DNA of 64,000 nucleotides from Burkholderia ubonensis subsp. mesacidophila (lineage in GTDB: Bacteria > Pseudomonadota > Gammaproteobacteria > Burkholderiales > Burkholderiaceae). Every line of letters begins with the position of its first letter. Position 1 is the first letter of the stretch. Below, one piece after another: positions 26,890-54,498 of the stretch. Location of the stretch: positions 2,666,001 to 2,730,000 of the forward strand of contig NZ_CP020738.1 of NCBI RefSeq assembly GCF_002097715.1. Reading direction: 5' to 3'. A model generated the notes under the pieces. That model was not told the DNA's origin, made no database searches, and saw nothing but the letters and a program-made list of their open reading frames with translations. A program made the translations under genes and the position numbers.

Positions 26890-28326
26890 TCAGACTCCGA
26901 TCCATTCCCAGCGCACTTGGTCGCGCGCCCATTCGTTGGCGCGTCTGGATGGTGGAAGCAAATCACCCTGCCTGCACAGGATCACCTCGTTGAGATCATC
27001 CTCATAAGTCGGTGGCCAGACATACAGCGGCGATTCGATCCGTGCAAACCAGCGCCCGCTGCGCGGACAGACCTCGCCCGGCTGGCTCCGCGCGGCAGCA
27101 TCCAGATCGGCTTCCCAGAACCAGCCGGGATGCCGGCCGTAAATCGCCTCGCCCCGCTCGTCCAGCACGCCCGCCATGTCCGGCGCGCGCTCGCCTGCGC
27201 GAAACGCCTTCACGAACCGGCTGCGCTGCGTGCTGCCCGACACGGCGCGGTAATAGCCGTCCTCGGCAAATGTCGCGCCCGGATATACCGGATGTGATGA
27301 CAACTTCTCGCGCTGCATCGCTTCGAATTCCTCCATTTCCCTCGGCGTCGACGGCCAGTCGCGGTCGAGCGTGATCGGCACCCGCCTGCCGGTGTCCGAG
27401 TGGAAATCGACCCGGCCCATGCTGGGTGCCACCTCGCGAGCCGTAACGGCCGCGTTCACCACAACGTTGAACTTGTAGGTTCCGCGTTTGAATTTCTCAT
27501 CCGGCAAGGTCAGAAACCTGAACGTCACGCTGCCCTTCGCAGGTATTACGACCCTGCCGTCAGGAAACTCCGATTGGTTAATCAAGGGCAGGCCCGCGAG
27601 ACTGGCTCCCCATGTGCTTGTGCCGTCTTCGTTTTTTCCACCGAAATCCAGTTGATATCCCATCACTTTCGACCATTTGTCCGGCGTATCCATCGCGATC
27701 GGATATTGCCCGCCGTTGACAAACCGGATCGACACCAGGAATCGGCCCTTTTCCTGCTCGACATTTACAACCTCGGCATCTAGCCGGACCACCGTCCGGC
27801 TTTCCGCCAAGTAGTCATTACGCCCACGCACATAAAGGCCTAATATACTTTTAATAAGCATTTCCGGTAACTGGGACGTAATACCATGATGTATCTCGAG
27901 CTTTCCATCCCGCAGGCAATCAACTGAGTATCGTCCATCGGTGGGTGAGGGGATTACATTGCTTTTGATCCCCGCGTCTACCGTCTCACAAAGCTGACGG
28001 TGGACCTCCCGAGCCAGCTTCCGATCGTCCGGCGAAAGCTTGCCATCGAAAACGCCGACACCATGGAAATCCATATTGTCGATTGTGTCACCCATCGTGA
28101 CTCGAATGCTTCCAGACAGCCAGACAGAGACGGTATTCATTCCATATCCATGCCCCCCTAACCCCACTATCCCAAACCCCTCCCCACTGCCACCGATATC
28201 AAGATTGCCACCAGCCACCGCCACCGAAACACTCGACATGACCCATACCCCACCGAGAATGAACAAGATTTCTGTTAGACGCGAGGCGCAAGCTCGAACC
28301 ACGAGCGCAAGCTTATTTCCGCTCAT
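26890..28326 (-). CDS. Predicted exported T6SS-associated protein, candidate immunity protein
   Basis: 478 residues from the ATG at 28326, overlapping the vgrG stop by 14 bases; an internal ATG at 28239 is an alternative start. A hydrophobic stretch at about residues 18-38 fits a signal peptide or anchor, so the bulk should be periplasmic. The middle has no recognised domain. The C-terminus has a CPRSGRWFARIES...CRQGDLLPP pattern of the kind seen at the end of several T6SS cluster immunity proteins. Its place between a vgrG carrying a protease and the PAAR gene, with overlapping ends, suggests that it neutralises the protease in the periplasm. It could instead be a loading adaptor. Confidence 0.7.
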   Translation of the reverse strand: MSGNKLALVVRACASRLTEILFILGGVWVMSSVSVAVAGGNLDIGGSGEGFGIVGLGGHGYGMNTVSVWLSGSIRVTMGDTIDNMDFHGVGVFDGKLSPDDRKLAREVHRQLCETVDAGIKSNVIPSPTDGRYSVDCLRDGKLEIHHGITSQLPEMLIKSILGLYVRGRNDYLAESRTVVRLDAEVVNVEQEKGRFLVSIRFVNGGQYPIAMDTPDKWSKVMGYQLDFGGKNEDGTSTWGASLAGLPLINQSEFPDGRVVIPAKGSVTFRFLTLPDEKFKRGTYKFNVVVNAAVTAREVAPSMGRVDFHSDTGRRVPITLDRDWPSTPREMEEFEAMQREKLSSHPVYPGATFAEDGYYRAVSGSTQRSRFVKAFRAGERAPDMAGVLDERGEAIYGRHPGWFWEADLDAAARSQPGEVCPRSGRWFARIESPLYVWPPTYEDDLNEVILCRQGDLLPPSRRANEWARDQVRWEWIGV

Positions 28327-31300
28327 AACCGATCCTCCATTGCTTGTGCGTCATTTCGCAAAAATGCCGCCTGATGTACTCGAGGTAATAGGGTTGCACC
28401 AGCGCGCCCAGCGGCGCATCGGCAACCGGTGAAACCGGATGATTCGCCCCGTAACCCATGACATTCTTGTCGGAGCGGATCTGCCAGACCTCCTGCCCCT
28501 TGAAGCATTCGCCCGCCTCGAAATCTAGCTGGCCGTCCTTCACGTACCGCTTGTGCACATATCCTCCCCATTCCCAATACTCGTCCGGGAAATTGAACAG
28601 ATGCCCGCATTCGTGGGCGACGATATTCGATTCCGGCAGCGACACGAACTGGCCCAAATCTCTCGCGCCCCCTTTGATGACCTGTATCTCGCCCCACATA
28701 CCAGCATCGGCCCGCTCGGCTTGCGGGAACAAGAAAATCGTCTTGTGGATCTTCTTGCCGTCACCCACCGCGGCATCTCTCACTCCAATCAGAAACTCGA
28801 CCCGAAAGCGCACTACCACGCGACACCCGCAGGCCGCTTCCTTCGAGCAGCCGTCTAGGATCAGCATGCTGCCGTGCTCGTTCAGCACGCTTTCAACCCG
28901 CTTTTTGCTCTGCTTCACGTCGAATTTCCGACCCGCCCCGTCGCGGTAGCGCATTACATAGAAATTGCCATCTGAGCCGTTGGTCGGAATATCTACCGCC
29001 ATAGGACGCGCGGAGGCATGCACATCATGATGAAAGGGAACCCGCTGCTTTTGTCCGTCCAGCCCGAGCAGTTCTTTACCGGTCGCGTCTGTCTTGAACA
29101 AGTCGACCGGCACAACCTTGATCCGCACCGTCGCCTCCAGCAGTTTGTGCCGGTCGTCGTAGGTCAGTTCGAAGGCCGTGGGAAACTTGTAGCCGGCGTT
29201 CAAACCCATCAGCGACTTATCGGCTCGCAGCGCCTCGTAGGTCTCCATCTCCGTCTCGTCCGTGCATTCCCGGCGCGTGTCCGGCATGTGCCAGTTGCAA
29301 GGAACCGCCTTGTCGAGTTGGATCGGCACGCTCGGATCCTTCCCGGCCGACGGCGTCGACTCACGCTCGGCACCGTGACCGGCGTTCGGCGCGTCGGGCG
29401 AATCGCTCGACGCCCACGTGTCGACGGTCCCGCCTGATGACGAGGTCTGCCCCGTCATCGGCGCTGGAGCGGAAACGCCATCCTGAGCGACCAGCGCGGG
29501 CGACGTCTCCCGTGCGAGAGCCGCGTTTTTCCGCCACGCCTCGCAGCCCACCTCGAACGGAAACAATGCCGGTGCAAACGCCGGTGCACCCAAATGCATC
29601 TGCGATGCCGGACGCCGGTTGAACCGGGCCACCTCCCAATACAGGTCATACGGCGCGCCCAGCGTGATGCATCCGTTGGCCAGCTTGATGAATGCCCCCT
29701 TGCATTCGATGATGAATTCCTTCTGGGCCCGCATCATTACCGACCCGTTCACGCTCGACACCGTGACGTCCTGCTCGGCCGCCAGTGACAGCAAGTCGCT
29801 TTGAGCCTGAATCTGCACCGGCCCCTTCGCCGCAAAAATCCGGATCCCCAATTTCTGCGCGAACAGCGACAGCCGCTCCCCTGCCGCCGCCGTGAAGCGC
29901 CTGAGCGCGTTCACATGAAACCCGGCCCCGCTCCCGACGCTCACGTCCTTGCCCGCCGACACCATCACCCGGTCCGGCGTCGCCATGCCGATGCCGTTCG
30001 GCGCGGACAGCGCGATCACGGATTTCTTCAAACCGGCCAGTTCGTTCTTCAGCCACGTGTTTTCCGCTTTCAGATCCGCAACCTCCGCCTTCGAGGCCTC
30101 CGCCGACGCGGCCAGCATCTGCACACGCGCCTGCATCGATTCGAACTGCCGCATCGCCGGCTCCATGTCGGCGTGCACGCCATTCGCCTTTTCCTGCATG
30201 TCGGCCGACACCAGCACGCCCTCGCCCGCGCGCACCTGCCCGGGACCATCCGTACGCAACTCGAAGCCCGTGCCTCGCAGCTTCTGGTCCCGATCCACCG
30301 TGTAACCCAGGTTCAGCTGCGTCTTGCCGTGTTCAGTCGCAAGCTTGATGTGTTCCTTGCCCTTCCTGTCGTCCAACTCGAGGGTGTTGTTCGAACGCGT
30401 GCGAATCGTGTTGCGCGTGCCCCATGGATAGCCCGCAATGACGGGATCCATGTCCTCAGCCGTATGAAGCACTTGACTGATAAACGGAAGATCCGGATTC
30501 CCCCACAAGAAGCCCACGGTCACGACCGTGCCCTCTACGAGCCCGAAGTGAAACCCGGTTCGGCCTGCTCCCGCGAACGGCTTTGCAAGCCGCATCGGAC
30601 AGCTTTGCAGGCCCGGCGTGCGTGCGTCCCGGTCAGGGTGGATATGGACGGTGTAGCGGCCCTGCTCATCCAGATACGGATCCCGCCATCCTCCCGACGA
30701 GGCGACCGTACCCGTAATGACACCCTCGATCCTCGGCCACGCTTCTTCCTGCAGTGGCAGCCGATACAGCCGGTCGGACGGAATCGCCGAGAACTCGACG
30801 TGGTATGGCTTGTTGCGCGAGGCGCGGCATGTGACCCGCACGGCGAGCAGCCCATGCTTCGCATCGGGCAGCGTGCGGTTCGACAGCTTCAACACCGAGC
30901 CGGGTGTGAGGTCCAGCAGGTCGCAAGTGCCGCGATACTCGACCTGCGTCGCCAGCGCCGCCTCGTGGCGAAGCAACGCCTCTTGCTTCGCCTCGTCGTC
31001 CGTCAGATACGGCGTGCCCCACACATAGGCCTCGCCATACACGGTGCGGTCTTCGTGGATGTCCTTGGATGCTTCGATCGGCTCCGCCGGTTGCCGCTCG
31101 GTGTGATACGTGCGCACGGTGTGACGTTTCGGAACGGTCGTCGCGCGCATTTCCAGCGAACTGACGGACTCCACGCCTGCCGTTTCCATGCCGCTGGGCT
31201 CGCGGTACGCAACGGTCAGCGCCGGGTCGTGACGATAATGCGTGAAGTCGTCGCCAAAGCGTACGTGCTCGCGCTTTTCGCCGGCCTCGCAGACGAACCA

Positions 31301-31876
31301 GATACCGGTGCGGCGGCACAGACGCGTGATGAACGAAAGATCGTCCTCGCCCCATTGCATTACGAACGGGCGCTTGCGGTACTCGCGATACAGCGTGAAC
31401 TCGAAGCGAGCGAAGATCTGGTTGAAGTCGTGTTCCTTCAGGATCTGCCGGATGATCTCAGGCTCGCTCATGTCGAGAAAGAACCGGCACCGCCGGGTGC
31501 CGCGCAGCAGCGCCAAGCGCGATTCCAGCACGACCTCGTAGGTGGACTGGTCGCGGTTGCTGTTCAACAGCGCAAAGCCAGTCACCACGCCATGCACGCG
31601 CCGCGCATCCTCCGGCTTGCTCCAGCGGTCACGCGGTGGCGGCTGGATCACGAATGCGGCGCGCTTGTTCAGATACTCGGCGCGCGACAAATCGTGCTGC
31701 GGATGGGTGAACTGGATCGTGTATTTTGTTGGCTCGCCGATACCGCGCATGCCGTCGAAAGCGAAGATATCGGCCAGCGCCGCACTTTTTGCCTGCGGCA
31801 TGTCAAGGCTGTAAAACGCGTGAACGTTGACGCCCGCCCGCGCGGACGTATCGACAAAAGCGGTGCTCGGGCCCAA
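28313..31876 (-). CDS. vgrG: Evolved VgrG spike protein with C-terminal metzincin-like metalloprotease effector domain
   Basis: 1187 residues from a TTG at 31876, chosen because a perfect AGGAGGAG lies just upstream; no ATG occurs in frame until about residue 26. Residues 1-470 are the VgrG (gp27/gp5-like) core, ending with an OB-fold (GVITGTVASSGG, LVEGTVVTVGFLWGNPDLP). A coiled-coil-like stretch follows at about 590-640, then the DUF2345 beta-prism (GAGFHVNALRRFTAAAGERL). After a low-complexity linker (about 800-860) there is a C-terminal domain of about 330 residues with HECGH at 1088-1092, followed by LFNFPDEY and, about 45 residues later, NVMGYG. This pattern fits a zinc protease with an HExxH helix and a Met-turn, similar in style to M64 peptidases. 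The protease would be delivered into target cells by the T6SS. Confidence 0.88.
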   Translation of the reverse strand: MGPSTAFVDTSARAGVNVHAFYSLDMPQAKSAALADIFAFDGMRGIGEPTKYTIQFTHPQHDLSRAEYLNKRAAFVIQPPPRDRWSKPEDARRVHGVVTGFALLNSNRDQSTYEVVLESRLALLRGTRRCRFFLDMSEPEIIRQILKEHDFNQIFARFEFTLYREYRKRPFVMQWGEDDLSFITRLCRRTGIWFVCEAGEKREHVRFGDDFTHYRHDPALTVAYREPSGMETAGVESVSSLEMRATTVPKRHTVRTYHTERQPAEPIEASKDIHEDRTVYGEAYVWGTPYLTDDEAKQEALLRHEAALATQVEYRGTCDLLDLTPGSVLKLSNRTLPDAKHGLLAVRVTCRASRNKPYHVEFSAIPSDRLYRLPLQEEAWPRIEGVITGTVASSGGWRDPYLDEQGRYTVHIHPDRDARTPGLQSCPMRLAKPFAGAGRTGFHFGLVEGTVVTVGFLWGNPDLPFISQVLHTAEDMDPVIAGYPWGTRNTIRTRSNNTLELDDRKGKEHIKLATEHGKTQLNLGYTVDRDQKLRGTGFELRTDGPGQVRAGEGVLVSADMQEKANGVHADMEPAMRQFESMQARVQMLAASAEASKAEVADLKAENTWLKNELAGLKKSVIALSAPNGIGMATPDRVMVSAGKDVSVGSGAGFHVNALRRFTAAAGERLSLFAQKLGIRIFAAKGPVQIQAQSDLLSLAAEQDVTVSSVNGSVMMRAQKEFIIECKGAFIKLANGCITLGAPYDLYWEVARFNRRPASQMHLGAPAFAPALFPFEVGCEAWRKNAALARETSPALVAQDGVSAPAPMTGQTSSSGGTVDTWASSDSPDAPNAGHGAERESTPSAGKDPSVPIQLDKAVPCNWHMPDTRRECTDETEMETYEALRADKSLMGLNAGYKFPTAFELTYDDRHKLLEATVRIKVVPVDLFKTDATGKELLGLDGQKQRVPFHHDVHASARPMAVDIPTNGSDGNFYVMRYRDGAGRKFDVKQSKKRVESVLNEHGSMLILDGCSKEAACGCRVVVRFRVEFLIGVRDAAVGDGKKIHKTIFLFPQAERADAGMWGEIQVIKGGARDLGQFVSLPESNIVAHECGHLFNFPDEYWEWGGYVHKRYVKDGQLDFEAGECFKGQEVWQIRSDKNVMGYGANHPVSPVADAPLGALVQPYYLEYIRRHFCEMTHKQWRIGYERK

Positions 31877-32058
31877 GAATCTCCTCCTGGTCAAACGTTT
31901 GTCAGATATCCCGGCACGACCTTAATCTCCAAGTAGAACGAAGGAAATAGAACTTGTTCGAAAATTCAAACGAAATAAAAAATACGTGTCCAATCGCAAA
32001 TCGACGATCACGATCACCGACAGCGTTCGCGGGTGCACGCCGGCCCGTCGCCGCCTGA

Positions 32059-47047: not shown

Positions 47048-48262
47048 ATGACACTTAAGAAGTTTCCTCGCAACAAGCCGAACAAGGGCGACCGTGTGCT
47101 GGAAGAACTGACGTCTACGGGGGACGCTACGGGAATTGAGGCCTCGACGGAGGAAGCCAGGGAGTATCAACAGCTACCCTTTGATCCGGCGAGCCTTGAT
47201 ATAGACACCCGCGCCATGACCGTGCACCACATAGTGCAACTCACGCGTTTGTCTGAGCTCATCCTAATGCCTGAGTATCAACGGCGATATGGGCTTTGGG
47301 ACGATCATCTGCAAAGCCGGCTTATCGAATCGCTGTTGTTGCGCCTGCCCATCCCGAGCCTCTACCTTTCGGAAGACGACGACGGCAGGTATTCCGTCGT
47401 GGACGGCGTGCAACGACTCAGCGCAATCATGCGTTTCGTCGATCCCGAGGCCCTGGAGCGTCACGTTGACACGAGGTCATCTCACCCCCTTCGTCTGGTC
47501 GGTCTCGAATATATGTCCGGATTTGAGGGATGTACCTTCCGGGATCTACCGTTTGCGCTCCAGCGACGTATACTCGACACCCCGCTCGTCATGCACGTAA
47601 TCCGACGGGGCACTCCTGAGATCGTCAAGTTCAATGTCTTTGAACGAATCAATACGGGGGGGCTGCCTCTCTCCGGACAAGAGTTGCGTTCCGCACTCAT
47701 CGGGGGACGGGCAAGAGACATTCTCCGCGCTCTGGCAGATAGCCCCGAGTTTCTGGAGGCGACGGCTGGTTCTGTCTCTCAGGAGCGCCTCGCCGATCAA
47801 GAGCTCATTCTTCGTTATTTCGCTTTTGATCAGATTTGGCCTTGGGAATACTTCGACCATTCAGTCGGGAAGTCGTTCTTGAATGATGCGATGCACGCCA
47901 TGAACAACTGGAGCCATGGGTTTGCGGACAAAAAAATCGGAGACTTCAAGACTGCAATGGCCAATGCAGCTCGTCTTTTTGGGGAGCACGCCTTTCGCAA
48001 AGTTTCGCTTGATACGTACCGCCCTTTTCCGATTAATCGAGCTTTGTTTGAGGCAGAAGCGGTATTGTGCGGCCGTATTTCAATGGTCAACCGGTCGACT
48101 CTCGCCGAGCGGCGAACGACCGTGACGCGGCGCCTTGCCAAAGAGCTCGAAAGCAATGTCGATTTTTGGCGTGCCGTGTCTCAAGCTACCGGCAGCGCAA
48201 GAGCCGTATTCACACGTTTTGAAGTAATGCAGCGAATCTTTGAAAGGGCCGATCTTGCTTAA
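47048..48262 (+). CDS. DUF262-domain protein, first gene of a putative defence operon
   Basis: 404 residues. The N-terminal domain is DUF262 (ParB/sulfiredoxin-like): PEYQRR at 75-80, an IESLLLRLPIP segment and DGVQRLSAIMRF at about 119-130 in place of the common DGQQR. The rest is helical, with FERINTGGLPLSGQELRSAL, a typical DUF262 segment, at about 197. Such proteins are found in restriction (GmrSD) and other anti-phage systems, where this domain binds nucleotides or acts on DNA. It overlaps the ATPase gene by eight bases. Codon use is much less G+C-biased than that of flanking genes. The ATG at 47048 is the only reasonable start, though its ribosome-binding site is weak. Confidence 0.85.
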   Translation: MTLKKFPRNKPNKGDRVLEELTSTGDATGIEASTEEAREYQQLPFDPASLDIDTRAMTVHHIVQLTRLSELILMPEYQRRYGLWDDHLQSRLIESLLLRLPIPSLYLSEDDDGRYSVVDGVQRLSAIMRFVDPEALERHVDTRSSHPLRLVGLEYMSGFEGCTFRDLPFALQRRILDTPLVMHVIRRGTPEIVKFNVFERINTGGLPLSGQELRSALIGGRARDILRALADSPEFLEATAGSVSQERLADQELILRYFAFDQIWPWEYFDHSVGKSFLNDAMHAMNNWSHGFADKKIGDFKTAMANAARLFGEHAFRKVSLDTYRPFPINRALFEAEAVLCGRISMVNRSTLAERRTTVTRRLAKELESNVDFWRAVSQATGSARAVFTRFEVMQRIFERADLA

Positions 48263-49349
48263 TCATCTTCTGCTTCGTAATTTCAAGCTATTCGAACGGC
48301 TTTCCTTGCCTCTCGCGGAGCTTACTGTTCTATCGGGAAATAACAGTTCCGGAAAGAGCTCTGTGCTGCAAGCCGTCGCTTTGCTTGAACAAGCCTATTT
48401 GCGCGACGACCGGATCACTGCCATAGAGCTTAACGGCGAACTGGTCGAGCTCGGATCCGGCAACGAGATATATTTCTCTGAGGGTTTGACGTCTACTATC
48501 GACGTACGGCTGGAGGATGAATCAACCTCAACCGACTGGAAAATGCACTTCGAGTCTGAGGGAGACGTTCTGAATCTCGCTGACGGCCCGATCGAACGGC
48601 CGTTGCTTCTTCCCAAGTCATTCCAATATTTACGAGCGGATCGCATATCGCCTCAGCAAGTTTTCCCCCGCTCTTCACATATGGTGATGGATCGCCGGTT
48701 CCTCGGACCGCGTGGCGAATATACTGCCGACTTTATCCTTCGACACAAGGACGAGCGGGTCGAGAAGCGGCGACAAAGAATCGTCTCTGACGGCGATGCG
48801 CTGAAACTTGATGAGGCTATAAACCAGTGGCTCGAACCGATCAGCGCTGGGGTTGGAGTCAAGGTATCGCCGGTCTCAGGCCTCGATTACGTCAAGCTTG
48901 GCTTCAGCTATCGACGCGCGGGTGACGTGGCGGAGAATGCGCGCCGCTCAACGCACGTGGGATTCGGCCTTACCTGCGTTCTTCCCGTCATCACTGCGTG
49001 CCTGAGTGCGAGGAAAGGCGACTTGCTGCTCATAGAGAATCCGGAAGCGCATCTGCATCCGGAAGGACAGGCCGTTCTCGGGGACTTGTTATCGAAAACT
49101 GCCGCAGATGGCGTTCAGGTGCTCGTTGAAACGCACAGTGACCATGTCTTAAATGCGATTCGGCTCGCGGTGAAGTGCAAAACGCTCACACCGATACAAG
49201 TAGCATTCCATTTTTTTGGGCGACATGCTTCGGGAAAGGTCGCTCATGACCAGCCAGAAATTGATGCCGGGGGAAGACTTGATCAGTGGCCATCCGGGTT
49301 TTTCGATCAGTGGGAAAAAGCCCTGCGCGCTCTTTTGCGCGATGCATGA
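48255..49349 (+). CDS. AAA/ABC-like ATPase with DUF3696, second gene of the putative defence operon
   Basis: 364 residues from a TTG at 48255; AAGGG lies upstream at a suitable distance, and another TTG at 48240 is possible. Walker A is SGNNSSGKSS at 27-36. The ABC-like C-terminal part has LLLIENPEAHLHPEGQ (Walker B with the catalytic Glu) and ETHSDHVLNAIRLAV. The C-terminal DUF3696-like tail is present. Proteins of this kind resemble RecF/OLD-type ATPases and are common in anti-phage systems next to an effector nuclease. It lies between the DUF262 gene and a TOPRIM-like protein gene, 15 bases before the latter. Confidence 0.88.
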   Translation: MLNHLLLRNFKLFERLSLPLAELTVLSGNNSSGKSSVLQAVALLEQAYLRDDRITAIELNGELVELGSGNEIYFSEGLTSTIDVRLEDESTSTDWKMHFESEGDVLNLADGPIERPLLLPKSFQYLRADRISPQQVFPRSSHMVMDRRFLGPRGEYTADFILRHKDERVEKRRQRIVSDGDALKLDEAINQWLEPISAGVGVKVSPVSGLDYVKLGFSYRRAGDVAENARRSTHVGFGLTCVLPVITACLSARKGDLLLIENPEAHLHPEGQAVLGDLLSKTAADGVQVLVETHSDHVLNAIRLAVKCKTLTPIQVAFHFFGRHASGKVAHDQPEIDAGGRLDQWPSGFFDQWEKALRALLRDA

Positions 49350-49364
49350 GAGGGTACAAAAAAA

Positions 49365-50537
49365 GTGCCAGGTATCTTCTTCAATGAGCAGTCGCGGTTT
49401 TCAGCCAGGCCATCTACGCAACAGGCACTTGCCGCCGTGGAACGATTTGTGTCAGTACTGCACGCTCTTAACGAACTCTCTTCGTCTTTCTGGTTGTGTC
49501 TTGACACCGACAACATTTCAAGCTTCGCACTGGATAACACGGAGCAGCCTCTCACTCTGGGTGAAGTACTGGCGGGCGACCGTTATCGCGATCACTGGGC
49601 GTTTCTGCTCGAGCTTCTGAGACGCGCGCCGTACAAGCCGCACTCGGCATGGCTCACAGAAGGAATAACACATGGAGTTGACTATCTGCACAATGGCACA
49701 AACGTCTTTGGCCTCGGCGCGGCCTCATGTCATCAGGGCGTCGCAGTCAACCTTGAAAGTAGTGCAGTAGCTGGCACTGTAGTTGAACTCGTCCGTAGAG
49801 CGCTTAGCCCCGATGGAGAACATGTCCTAGAAACAGTGGTGCAAACCCAGCAGATAACTTCAAGTACAGATGTTGCTGCCATCCGCGACTGGTTTGTTGA
49901 GCACTACCCCCCTGTGAAAACACAAGCGCTTGAGACAACAACGCTTTATGTTGAAGGAGGTGGCGATGACAGTGATCTCCGCTCCCAGTGCCGAGACGCC
50001 TTCAAGACGTTGCTTAAGAGCAGCAAGGTGCCTTCGCATAGGTTCACCGTCAAAGCTTGCGGCGGTCGCTCGACTACGTATCGCGCGTACACAAAAGCAG
50101 TCGAGCGTGGCGACGCCCCGTGCGTGCTGCTCGTCGATAGCGAGTCCAGTGTCACCACAGAGCACCCGTGGGAACATCTGCGCTTACGTGCAGGAGATGA
50201 ATGGGCTAAGCCGGAACCCGCCAGCGCTGATGATTGTCATTTGATGACGCAATGCATGGAGATGTGGTTGGTTGCGGACCCATCTGCGCTTTCTGCGTTT
50301 TTTGGTGCAGGCTTTCAAGTATCCAGGCTACCCAAAGCAAACCTGGAGACCGTCGCGAAGGAGTTGTTGTATGACGCCTTGGCGAACGCGAGCAAAGATT
50401 GCAAAACGAAAGATCCATATGGGAAGGGCGCGCACTCGTTCAAGATACTGAAAACATTAGATCCTGAGCGCATCGCCGCTGCGTCTCCTTGGGCCAAGCG
50501 GTTTTTCGATCGAATGGCCGTCCTTACCAGGGAGTGA
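49365..50537 (+). CDS. Two-part protein: unknown N-domain joined to DUF4276/TOPRIM-like domain, third gene of the putative defence operon
   Basis: 390 residues from a GTG at 49365 with AGAGGG upstream. Residues 1-185 form an unrecognised domain (FFNEQSRFSARPSTQQALAA at the start). Residues 192-390 match the DUF4276 pattern: LYVEGGGDDSD at 195-204 and VLLVDSE at 254-260, then CHLMTQCMEMWLVAD, KGAHSFKIL and a final PWAKRFFDRM. The Glu and the DSE fit TOPRIM catalytic positions, predicting a Mg-dependent nuclease. An ATPase followed by a TOPRIM protein is the logic of OLD, Gabija and PARIS defence. The N-domain could be a sensor or second effector. The two parts are in one uninterrupted frame. 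Confidence 0.75.
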   Translation: MPGIFFNEQSRFSARPSTQQALAAVERFVSVLHALNELSSSFWLCLDTDNISSFALDNTEQPLTLGEVLAGDRYRDHWAFLLELLRRAPYKPHSAWLTEGITHGVDYLHNGTNVFGLGAASCHQGVAVNLESSAVAGTVVELVRRALSPDGEHVLETVVQTQQITSSTDVAAIRDWFVEHYPPVKTQALETTTLYVEGGGDDSDLRSQCRDAFKTLLKSSKVPSHRFTVKACGGRSTTYRAYTKAVERGDAPCVLLVDSESSVTTEHPWEHLRLRAGDEWAKPEPASADDCHLMTQCMEMWLVADPSALSAFFGAGFQVSRLPKANLETVAKELLYDALANASKDCKTKDPYGKGAHSFKILKTLDPERIAAASPWAKRFFDRMAVLTRE

Positions 50538-50864: not shown

Positions 50865-51485
50865 ATGGCAGCCGAACTTCCTTATCTCGCAAGCTACAAG
50901 AACGTTGCGGAGCTTTTTCAACGAATTTCGTCAGCGAAGAAGCCAGAAAATTTCACGACTCGATACTTAGCCGAAACAATTGGTCTAAAAAACTCCACCG
51001 ATCGCCAACTTATAGCTTTACTTAAGACGCTAGGGTTTCTGGACAGTGCCGGACGCCCAACACCGAACTACGACCAACTAAAAAATTCAAATCGCGCACC
51101 GAAAGCCATCGCCGATGCAGTTCGACGAGCATATGAACCACTATATGCTGCAAATGAGAATGCACATAATTTATCGAGCTCCGAACTTAAGGGACTTATT
51201 TCTCAAGTTGCTGGCTCAGATACCGGCATGACGATGAAAATTCAGGGGACTTATGCCTCACTTATTAAGATTTCAGATTTTAGCGGCGAGGAATCCGTCA
51301 AAAACGAACCAGATACAACTGCCACAAGGGAAGTTGATGGCTCATCGACAAACGTCGAACGCGCACTGGGCGCCCGACTCAAGCCGGAGTTTCATTACAA
51401 TATTCAAATTCATTTGCCAGCCAACGCTGCCGAAGAGACGTATCTAAATATCTTCAATGCCCTTCGCCGATCATTTGAATCATGA
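50865..51485 (+). CDS. DUF5343-domain protein
   Basis: 206 residues. The N-terminal 110 residues are a helical, winged-helix-like DUF5343 domain (LPYLASYKNVAELFQRISSA, then RQLIALLKTLGFLDSAGRPT), which predicts DNA or nucleic-acid binding. The C-terminal 40 residues (LKPEFHYNIQIHLPANAAEE) look like a beta-strand end that often occurs in such proteins. It overlaps the HEPN gene by four bases, so the two form one functional unit. Codon use is atypical for this genome. Confidence 0.8.
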   Translation: MAAELPYLASYKNVAELFQRISSAKKPENFTTRYLAETIGLKNSTDRQLIALLKTLGFLDSAGRPTPNYDQLKNSNRAPKAIADAVRRAYEPLYAANENAHNLSSSELKGLISQVAGSDTGMTMKIQGTYASLIKISDFSGEESVKNEPDTTATREVDGSSTNVERALGARLKPEFHYNIQIHLPANAAEETYLNIFNALRRSFES

Positions 51486-52045
51486 ACGATCAACGGCTTG
51501 CACTCTTTCTTATGTTAGGTCAAACCGCATCTCGCGAGATGCGAAATTTGCCTGGTCTTGTTCCCCCAGAACCTCTGCGAATCTCTGCGTCGCACGATTT
51601 GGCAGCCACCATGCCAGAGACTGTCCGTGAAGCAATGGAAGCTGCCGAGGCATACAAGCTATTTTTTGCATTCGAGAATTATCTTAGAGAGTTTGCTGTT
51701 GAAGTTCTTTCGAATGATGCTGCTGACGATTGGTGGCAGAAATTGCCACAAGATGTTCGCGATGAAATTGTCAAGCTAGAAGAAAACGAGGAGTCGAAGA
51801 GTTGGATGGCTCTTGGTTCCCGGGATAAATCTGCCCTTATGACGTATCCTCAGATTATCCGAGTGATTGACCATTGCTGGAAAAGTCATTTTGAAGATAT
51901 GTTGCGCGACAAGACTCTCATTCAGGAAGCCCGGATGATTGGCCATCTTCGAAATGCGATTTGCCACATGTCTGCTATACCAGATGAAGAGATCGCTCGG
52001 GTACGTCAAGTCATGCGGGATTGGTTCCGCCGCATTGCACCATAG
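51482..52045 (+). CDS. HEPN-domain protein (Swt1-like), candidate RNase partner
   Basis: 187 residues, all helical. It contains AFENYLREFAVEVLSND and, near the C-terminus, the HEPN RNase motif RNxxxH as RNAICH (Arg157, His162). The arrangement FENYLRE ... DWW ... HLRNAICH is the Swt1-type HEPN pattern. HEPN proteins are metal-independent RNases used in abortive infection and toxin systems. It starts within the stop of the DUF5343 gene, so the partner could be a sensor or regulator of its activity. Function in defence is inferred. Confidence 0.8.
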   Translation: MNDQRLALFLMLGQTASREMRNLPGLVPPEPLRISASHDLAATMPETVREAMEAAEAYKLFFAFENYLREFAVEVLSNDAADDWWQKLPQDVRDEIVKLEENEESKSWMALGSRDKSALMTYPQIIRVIDHCWKSHFEDMLRDKTLIQEARMIGHLRNAICHMSAIPDEEIARVRQVMRDWFRRIAP

Positions 52046-52223
52046 GCGATCGTGAGCAAACTACACTGGCGCGGAGATTTTTAACTACAGACCATTGTTT
52101 GTCCAACTCACTCGGACTGGCGTCAATTTGCACGAAGATCCGAGAGACGAACTCGAAATCATAGGCGATCTTACATATCTGAAAAATACGGGAAGACTCA
52201 TCACTCACGACTCGGAGGACCAC

Positions 52224-52688
52224 ATGACTCACAACTTCGAACGCTTGCGGGAGCATATCCTGCCACTTTCTAAATCGAAAAATTTCGAAGCAGCGCGAAC
52301 CGAGTGGGTTCTTGAATCTGTCGAAGTTAGTGATGAATTTGATTCTTGCCCGTGCGGTCAAGATATCAAGGAGCACTGCTATATCCGCAATACAGTGACT
52401 GGACATCGAACCTATGTCGGTAACGTATGCGTTAACCAGTTCATTGGGATTGATACTGGAAATCTCTTTGACGGCCTACGTCGCATCAAGGAGAATCCAT
52501 CGGCAAACCCGAACTTGGCAGTGATTGCCTACGCAGAGGCTAGGGGTTTTCTTTTCGACAAAGAACCCGACTTTCTCCGAGCAACAGTTCGAAAGCGGAT
52601 TCTTTCATCAGCACAGAAGGCCTGGAAGGAAAAAATCAATCTCCGTATTCTGCAAGGAACGGTCGTGAGACGTAGAACGGTTCGGTAA
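52224..52688 (+). CDS. Small zinc-finger protein of unknown function
   Basis: 154 residues from the ATG at 52224, which has a near-perfect GGAGG five bases upstream; the open frame begins earlier at 52095 with a TTG but lacks such a site. A Cys cluster CPCGQDIKEHC at about 40-50 and a further VGNVCVNQF suggest a zinc knuckle. The C-terminal half is basic and helical. No named family is recognised with certainty. It stands 178 bases after the HEPN gene and has the same low-G+C codon use, so it belongs to the island. Confidence 0.65.
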   Translation: MTHNFERLREHILPLSKSKNFEAARTEWVLESVEVSDEFDSCPCGQDIKEHCYIRNTVTGHRTYVGNVCVNQFIGIDTGNLFDGLRRIKENPSANPNLAVIAYAEARGFLFDKEPDFLRATVRKRILSSAQKAWKEKINLRILQGTVVRRRTVR

Positions 52689-52984: not shown

Positions 52985-53773
52985 ATGCACTCCCGCTTCG
53001 ACCGCTTCCGCACCACCCCTCTCGGCGCACAGCTCGAAGCCCTGATCGCCCAACCCGACCGCTACCTCGAATTCGCCGCCCTTTCCCGCGTCGGCGTCGC
53101 CGCGATCGGCGCGATCCAGGACGAAATCGCCCAAAAATTCCCCGAAATCTCGACCGAAACCACCGCACGCCAGTTCTGCGGCGCGATGGTCGCCGACGTG
53201 ATGCGGCGCCACGGCCACGATGTCGTCCAGGCGCGCGGCCGCCTCGGCGGCGCGTTGTTCAGCTACGGCGCCGTATTCAGCCCGTACCCGCAACAGCTGC
53301 CTTTTGCCGACATCGTCAGCGAACTCGCGCGCATGCCCGACACGTTCGCCGCATTCGTCACCCACATACCCACCGCACTGAGAACCCAACGCCCCGACGG
53401 CACCGGCTTCTCACTCGTCGAACACGCATGCCACCTGCGCGACCTCGACGCGATATTCGCCGCGCGCATCGACGCAGTGCGCACCGCCGACCTGCCGGTG
53501 ATCGCATCGGTCGACGGCACCGTGCTCGCCGAACAGCGCGACTACCTGCATCAGGATCTGGGCGAAGCACTTGATGCGTTCCGCACCACGCGGCGCCATC
53601 TGTGCGCAACACTCGCGACGCTTTCACCGGCCGAACTGACGCGCTGCGGCCTACGCGACGGCATCCGCCGCATGTCGCTCGATGAGCTCGTGCACGAGTT
53701 GCTCGACCACGACCGCACCCATTCCGTCGAACTCGGCGAACTGCTCGCCGAGCTGAACCCGCGCCTCGCATGA
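52985..53773 (+). CDS. DinB-like (DUF1993-type helical bundle) protein
   Basis: 262 residues from the ATG at 52985; the open frame extends upstream to 52727 into A+T-rich DNA that looks non-coding. The C-terminal part has SLVEHACHLRDLDAIFAARID and HELLDHDRTHSVELGEL, with histidines spaced as in DinB/YfiT metal-binding helical bundles. The N-terminal part is unassigned. Family members are metal-dependent, with thiol transferase or unknown roles. High G+C codon use returns here, marking the end of the island. It overlaps the next hydrolase gene by four bases. Confidence 0.75.
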   Translation: MHSRFDRFRTTPLGAQLEALIAQPDRYLEFAALSRVGVAAIGAIQDEIAQKFPEISTETTARQFCGAMVADVMRRHGHDVVQARGRLGGALFSYGAVFSPYPQQLPFADIVSELARMPDTFAAFVTHIPTALRTQRPDGTGFSLVEHACHLRDLDAIFAARIDAVRTADLPVIASVDGTVLAEQRDYLHQDLGEALDAFRTTRRHLCATLATLSPAELTRCGLRDGIRRMSLDELVHELLDHDRTHSVELGELLAELNPRLA

Positions 53774-54498
53774 GCCTCCACACACCCGTCGTCTTCATCC
53801 ACGGCTTCATCGGCACGTTCGACATGCCGTCCTGGCCCGGCCCGCACCTCGCGCCGGACCTGCTCGGCTACGGCACGCATCGCGCAGCACCGCCCGACAC
53901 CATCACGCTCGCTGCACAGGTCGAACATCTGCGGCAAGCAATCAACACCAACTTCGGCGACACACCTGTCGACATCGTCGGCCACTCCGTCGGCGGCGCG
54001 ATCGCGATGCTGTTCGCGCATGCACATCCCGCGCGCGTGCGCCGGATCGTCAACGTCGAGGGGAATTTCACGCTGGACGACGCGTTCTGGTCAGCATCGG
54101 TCGGACGCATGTCGCCCGCCGAAGCCGATGCGATGCTCGACACATTGCGCGCCGACCCGCTCGCCTGGCTGCGCGGCGCCATCGCCGATCCAGCTCCGGA
54201 GCTGGCAACCAAGGCCACCCGCTGGCTCGCCCATCAGCCCGCATCGACGCTGCGCGCGATGGGCCGCTCGGTAGTCGCGACGACCGGCGACGCCGCCTAC
54301 CTGAACGCGCTCGCGCAGGTGTTCGAACGCCACCCGGTCTACCTGATCGCCGGCGAACGTTCGCGCGACGGCTGGCATGTGCCGGACTGGGCGCTGGCGC
54401 GCAGCGCCGGCCTCGAGATCATCGGCGGAGGCGGACACATGATGACGACGGAACAGCCCGAAGCCTTCCGCGCATCGGTCGAGCGCTGCCTGGGGTAA
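53770..54498 (+). CDS. Alpha/beta hydrolase
   Basis: 242 residues with the alpha/beta-hydrolase fold. The oxyanion-hole motif is FIHGFIGTFD, the nucleophile elbow VGHSVGGAIA (Ser about 76) and the catalytic His probably GGGGHMM near residue 222. No signal peptide. The four-base overlap with the preceding DinB-like gene implies coupled translation. The substrate is unknown. Confidence 0.88.
   Translation: MSLHTPVVFIHGFIGTFDMPSWPGPHLAPDLLGYGTHRAAPPDTITLAAQVEHLRQAINTNFGDTPVDIVGHSVGGAIAMLFAHAHPARVRRIVNVEGNFTLDDAFWSASVGRMSPAEADAMLDTLRADPLAWLRGAIADPAPELATKATRWLAHQPASTLRAMGRSVVATTGDAAYLNALAQVFERHPVYLIAGERSRDGWHVPDWALARSAGLEIIGGGGHMMTTEQPEAFRASVERCLG

Follow-up and report, generated by a model that had tools for sequence, protein, structure and literature searches.

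Menshen is a described anti-phage system in which, according to an excerpt of a review, a DUF262 gene whose loss abolishes protection is accompanied by a predicted OLD nuclease (PMC10952713). Several other systems share parts of this make-up. Among systems with separate genes for an ATPase and a TOPRIM protein, PARIS is the closest one that has been worked out: as one section of a further article has it, a phage protein is detected by AriA, which then activates AriB to cleave tRNAs of the host (PMC12839542). In Gabija, the TOPRIM domain is fused to the ATPase (GajA) and is accompanied by a UvrD-like helicase (GajB), in HEC-01 a separate gene for HEC-01B lies behind HEC-01A, and type IV restriction systems such as GmrSD and BrxU carry a DUF262 domain with a DGxQR motif. 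Here, a three-gene operon is analysed from a stretch of 64,000 nucleotides of Burkholderia ubonensis subsp. mesacidophila (contig NZ_CP020738.1, positions 2,666,001 to 2,730,000), which is called the window throughout. Judged by its sequence, the operon is Menshen with an exchanged effector in its third protein, i.e., a variant of a described system.

The first gene matches the PADLOC profile for NsnA at residues 17-400 of 404 (5.3e-108, 360 bits), the second matches that for NsnB at residues 1-362 of 364 (8.2e-107, 356 bits versus 120 bits for the next model), and the third matches that for NsnC at residues 2-179 (1.9e-15). We take NsnABC to be Menshen. Gene content, gene order, tight spacing, an NsnA and an NsnB of nearly full length, and the NsnC adaptor are all as in Menshen, whereas the NsnC of the window ends in a DUF4276 TOPRIM domain, unlike the effector part of the reference NsnC model. 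In HEC-01, the counterpart of this C-terminal domain, HEC-01B, is encoded on its own, whereas here it is fused to the NsnC adaptor, and the ATPase of the window is an NsnB which reaches only 65 bits with the best HEC-01A model. PARIS and Gabija/OLD differ from the window, which has an additional DUF262 partner and an additional adaptor domain; moreover, gene 2 scores 88 bits with the best AriA model, gene 3 has no match to AriB in PADLOC, and no helicase is matched by Pfam in the six genes scanned. From GmrSD and BrxU, with which it shares the DUF262 domain and the DGxQR motif, the operon differs by its ATPase and TOPRIM partner genes, and a DUF1524 nuclease domain was not found by Pfam in genes 1-3 at E-values up to 1.

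Genes 1 and 2 overlap by 8 bases if gene 2 starts at TTG 48255. The longest open reading frame (ORF) of gene 2, with 369 residues, starts at TTG 48240 and overlaps gene 1 by 23 bases, but the TTG at 48255 is favored since GAAAGGG is located just upstream and the NsnB profile matches the shorter form from residue 1. Gene 3 starts with GTG 49365 after a gap of 15 bases. At third codon positions, the GC content (GC3) of the operon genes amounts to 0.56-0.60, compared with 0.82-0.89 in four nearby genes, and the overall GC content of the operon is about 0.54-0.55 versus about 0.66 for its surroundings. For gene 1, GmrSD_N (1.3e-22) is the only Pfam match at E-values up to 1. NsnA of the window is 27-44% identical to 17 NsnA relatives, and D119, G120, Q122, and R123 of its DGVQR sequence are invariant in 18/18 aligned sequences; the role of the DGxQR motif is known from GmrSD, as the review excerpt indicates (PMC10952713). 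Gene 2 matches AAA_15, AAA_21, and DUF3696 in Pfam, and the same scan gives no TOPRIM match. Its Walker A sequence has G, N, G, and K at fixed positions in 62/62 NsnB and S or T at the last position in all of them, E269 of Walker B is present in 62/62 and E266 in 60/62, with D in the other two (numbering of the 369-residue ORF), and E, H, S, D, and H of the ETHSDH loop are kept in every NsnB aligned. An earlier note, made from the DNA letters, had described three genes with this overlap, gap, and foreign composition and with an intact Walker A/B in gene 2; coordinates, strand, spacing, composition, and motifs are confirmed by the ORFs, by GC3, and by key Walker positions kept in 60-62 of 62 NsnB. 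The same note had named Menshen as the likeness to be tested first, in agreement with the PADLOC matches, while its proposal of a new candidate system gives way to clear membership in Menshen.

Gene 3 consists of two parts. Its N-terminal adaptor is recognized by our own hidden Markov model (HMM) with an E-value of 7.1e-26, the window being part of the seed, and gene 3 matches two NsnC models of the PADLOC 2023 set, both in the adaptor part only. NsnC model PDLC03879 covers residues 1-307 of the canonical NsnC of locus L060 versus only residues 2-179 of gene 3. As the effector part varies among other NsnC too, gene 3 is considered an NsnC variant rather than a failed member. The C-terminal domain (residues 192-385) corresponds to HEC-01B in PADLOC (3.8e-68) and to DUF4276 in Pfam, and is 35-49% identical to the other 118 proteins among the matches listed, which are mostly stand-alone. 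E197, D258, and E260 are identical in 120/120 aligned DUF4276 domains, window included, and in a structure comparison the six best fold matches of the C-terminal domain are OLD or GajA TOPRIM proteins. According to the model, this domain has the fold of an OLD-family TOPRIM nuclease with its catalytic acids intact, and nuclease activity is predicted. The interpretation given in the earlier note is thus supported in part: the glutamate and the DSE motif of gene 3 are conserved, and the anti-phage type of operon it proposed, in which DUF262 and an ATPase of DUF3696 type precede a fusion protein with TOPRIM-like DUF4276, agrees with Pfam and PADLOC, but the N-terminal 185 residues, which it left unrecognised as perhaps a new effector or sensor, are the N-terminal domain of NsnC by PADLOC and by our HMM.

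Loci were surveyed with an NsnA profile built from an alignment of 18 proteins, taking the best 80 of at least 587 loci on genome contigs and 80 loci on viral contigs. NsnB directly follows NsnA in 74 of the best 80 genome loci, the six exceptions being over-long ORFs (L093 and L104), an NsnB in two pieces (L065 and L116), a contig end (L098), and a match on the other strand (L102). Together with the PADLOC E-values of 1.9e-15 to 5.3e-108 for the window, this regular succession goes beyond chance. An overlap of 1-30 bases between NsnA and NsnB occurs in 59 of the 71 genome relatives that have a third ORF. Near an NsnA-type gene, an NsnB-type ORF is present in 22/30 loci of a phylum sample, 3/9 same-genus loci, and 24/80 viral loci. 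Third genes were collected as 84 full genes of at least 245 residues; leaving out the viral loci L148 and L149 and adding the window gave 83. After five iterations, the adaptor HMM, whose seed comprised the N-terminal portions of gene 3 and a second fusion protein, P0002, detects the adaptor in 62 of these 83 proteins, window included. The parts behind the adaptor fall into 10 groups with sizes of 37, 8, 6, 3, 2, 2, 1, 1, 1, and 1, where the L125 group (3 members) and the L062 group (2 members) are held together by weak links (E 4e-4 to 5e-3). For the largest group (37/62), the AlphaFold2 model of one member suggests a RelE/YoeB toxin fold. Pfam YoeB is found in 6/83 third genes, with the best match (8.7e-21, L092) in the group of 6, and Pfam DUF4276 in one, the window; when the 62 NsnC with an adaptor are compared, the DUF4276 TOPRIM domain is absent from all 61 besides that of the window. 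The pair L110/L119 is 95% identical in NsnA and 89% in NsnB, but only 26% in NsnC, where the C-terminal ends differ, and has apparently undergone a recent effector exchange within the family. One of these two ends belongs to the group with YoeB and the other to a group characterized by HHG and TTGRNxRET motifs. The eight NsnC of L072, L084, L096, L099, L106, L110, L111, and L118 have this latter C-terminal domain in common, which is unnamed and contains HHG and TTGRNxRET-like motifs; L110, the only member scanned alone, has no significant Pfam match there.

Phylogenetic analysis of NsnA and NsnB places the window in a clade of 11 members (FastTree support 0.997), and the effectors of the other 10 belong without exception to the main group. 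Effectors of this group are also found with the proteins that best match NsnA (45%) and NsnB (43%) of the window. Since NsnA and NsnB of the window are nested among Menshens with main-group effectors, their history is most simply explained by an effector swap. Protein P0002 (389 residues, encoded on a contig of 2364 bases with a source labelled lgn) is 49% identical to and collinear with gene 3 and shows the same two-part layout of PADLOC matches; of 142 significant matches 120 were listed, and among these it alone, apart from gene 3 itself, covers the whole query. In a tree of 120 C-terminal domains the two fusions are sisters (0.998), so that a single fusion event is sufficient. When gene 3 was searched against overlapping sets of genomes from the class (369), the family (398), and the order (399), no fusion was found outside its own genome, and the other matches cover approximately residues 187-384 only. 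Stand-alone DUF4276 genes lie directly 3' of an OLD-type ATPase gene in 8/8 loci viewed (L202-L206 and L215-L217), although L203, L204, and L206 are near copies and L216 shows only the end of the ATPase; the three ATPases scanned from such loci are HEC-01A (1e-186 or better).

With these results, the operon is probably a Menshen in which a TOPRIM nuclease released by the core stops the infected cell. NsnA, with its ParB-like NTPase fold, and NsnB, an OLD-type ABC ATPase, would form a sensing and switching core, to which the N-terminal 185 residues of NsnC would dock the effector, leaving the killing to the C-terminal part. Upon infection, the core might release or assemble NsnC and so render the TOPRIM domain active, and cleavage of nucleic acid would halt the cell ahead of phage progeny. 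Sequence or modelling shows the membership in Menshen, the modular build of NsnC, the TOPRIM fold, intact NTPase and nuclease residues, core genes retained with differing effectors, and, on a tree, the swap. The signal sensed, the holding and release of NsnC, the substrate, and the abortive outcome are inferred, as is a division of labor in which the three proteins would sense, gate, and cut. Shutdown of the infected cell is preferred over classical restriction because the main effector group has a RelE/YoeB-like fold. As to the substrate, RNA, perhaps tRNA, is slightly favored over DNA, and only slightly since AriB of PARIS cleaves tRNA but OLD proteins cut DNA. More tentatively, and at somewhat less than even chances, the core of NsnA, NsnB, and adaptor may be indifferent to the effector it carries, the weapon of HEC-01 having been taken over whole in the window. 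If the core controls toxins unrelated in fold and chemistry, RelE-type as well as metal-dependent TOPRIM, it would have to release, relocate, or assemble the adaptor instead of making contact with the active site.

Several points weigh against this proposal. By fold, the C-terminal domain is closest to OLD nucleases, for which cutting of DNA is described (PMC10568477), and this favors DNA over RNA. For gene 3, AlphaFold2 gives a poor model of the N-terminal domain, with residues 91-135 below 50, and just 2 of the 32 sequences behind it extend over this part. The RelE fold of the main group is assigned from the model of a single member; most of the Z values are under 8, a range in which, as the tool warns, a match may reflect no more than a shared arrangement, and Foldseek E-values are weak as well. 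The tree of NsnA and NsnB is midpoint-rooted. The adaptor is unmatched in 21/83 third genes, some of which are, in our judgement, wrong ORFs in GC-rich loci and some divergent. In the DNA examined, an NsnB-type ORF is lacking in 8/30 phylum-sample, 6/9 same-genus, and 56/80 viral loci, and this looser link in the weaker sets indicates that a DUF262 gene of the NsnA kind alone does not mean Menshen. Finally, a TOPRIM/OLD-type domain is associated with one Menshen component in the review excerpt (PMC10952713). TOPRIM in Menshen may for this reason be less new than the survey suggests. In the literature searched, no mention of DUF4276 was found, which is no proof of absence, and no phage-defence text for the Nsn names was found among the literature matches listed. 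Li, Tan, Basu, Corbett, and Zhang reportedly treated domain polymorphism of Menshen in Nucleic Acids Res in 2025, to judge from the title, and the TOPRIM-effector variant may already be in print.

The domain delivered by the same swap might instead be a nuclease of OLD type for which DNA of phage and host, and not RNA, is the target of nicking or degradation, an alternative of considerable weight although it falls short of an even chance. RelE/YoeB toxins cleave mRNA, and the modelled fold of the main Menshen effector group speaks against it, whereas the six best fold matches to OLD or GajA speak in its favor. In addition, the article section presents class 2 OLD proteins as endo- and exonucleases that act on DNA nonspecifically and for which a mechanism with two metals is suggested (PMC10568477), but separate ATPase and TOPRIM genes, as in the window, are known from PARIS, where according to the section cited AriB cleaves host tRNA (PMC12839542). 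Modification-dependent restriction, with NsnA binding modified phage DNA as in GmrSD, NsnC cutting this DNA directly, and the cell surviving, would fit gene 1 with its GmrSD_N domain and DGxQR motif, but is unlikely given that Pfam detects no DUF1524 nuclease domain and that effectors elsewhere in the family look RelE/YoeB-like; such toxins are, to our knowledge, not DNA-cutting enzymes. It is very improbable that the operon is a non-functional or decaying island remnant with an accidental fusion: its foreign composition, its island setting, and the rarity of the fusion (one other among the 120 listed of 142 matches) would agree with decay, but three frames are intact, the catalytic residues are kept, and the other fusion, at 49% identity, retains the architecture of gene 3. 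A new system unrelated to Menshen and merely resembling it, as the lack of any NsnC model match in the C-terminal half of gene 3 might suggest, has practically no chance and is refuted at the sequence level by NsnA and NsnB matching over almost their whole length and by the adaptor, which places gene 3 in NsnC.

For Menshen with an exchanged effector, a working swap would show that one sensing core drives unrelated killing domains. It would turn the question of Menshen activation into a direct chimera experiment and explain why the third genes of Menshen are hard to annotate. It would also show that one profile name, NsnC, spans differing chemistry, so that effector predictions from the system name alone can mislead.

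Table. Features of the Menshen operon and of the adjacent candidate defence genes (positions in the window)
Feature	Position	Strand	Basis
Gene 1, NsnA, 404 residues, DUF262/GmrSD_N ParB-like NTPase fold	47048..48262	+	PADLOC, Pfam
NsnA DGVQR, DGxQR nucleotide-pocket motif, residues 119-123	47402..47416	+	alignment
Gene 2, NsnB, 364 residues, OLD/ABC-type ATPase with C-terminal DUF3696	48255..49349	+	PADLOC, Pfam
NsnB Walker A, GNNSSGKS	48336..48359	+	NsnB alignment
NsnB Walker B (LLLIENPE) and following loop, LLLIENPEAHLHP	49023..49061	+	NsnB alignment
NsnB ETHSDH loop	49128..49145	+	NsnB alignment
Gene 3, NsnC with exchanged effector, 390 residues	49365..50537	+	ORF, PADLOC
NsnC N-terminal adaptor domain, residues 1-185	49365..49919	+	iterated HMM, PADLOC
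DUF4276/HEC-01B TOPRIM nuclease domain (predicted), residues 192-385	49938..50519	+	PADLOC, Pfam
TOPRIM motif 1 glutamate, E197	49953..49955	+	DUF4276 alignment
TOPRIM motif 2, D258-S-E260	50136..50144	+	DUF4276 alignment
PDC-M34A candidate defence gene (DUF5343), neighbor outside Menshen	50865..51485	+	PADLOC 7e-50, Pfam 1.7e-36
PDC-M34B candidate defence gene (HEPN_Swt1), neighbor outside Menshen	51482..52045	+	PADLOC 9.5e-26, Pfam 1.9e-14

The source genome comprises 7.84 Mb in four contigs, and the operon is situated within a stretch of lower GC content at approximately 46-53 kb of the window. The same-genus relative G407 has about 1.2 kb in place of window 41.3-52.9 kb, and in G458, of the same genus, blastn similarity in the 16 kb compared starts only at window 52.9 kb; the operon thus occupies a variable slot. 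The downstream stretch 53100-54498, encoding a DinB-like protein and a hydrolase, has matches with E<=1e-80 in 50/65 same-genus genomes, its own included. A second candidate defence pair, PDC-M34A/B, lies 327 bases 3' of the operon with an even lower GC3 of 0.40-0.44 and has no match in the ORFs of loci L002-L201. An orphan ORF at the island's downstream end (52095-52688, 197 residues, GC3 0.49) gives nothing above cut-off in a Pfam scan and no PADLOC match. Elsewhere in the window, a 478-residue protein without a Pfam match (26890-28326) comes after a VgrG of a type VI secretion system (28313-31894, - strand; Phage_GPD, T6SS_Vgr, and DUF2345). Both are encoded in a region of lower GC content, and the VgrG bears a long C-terminal extension with an HExxH-like stretch.

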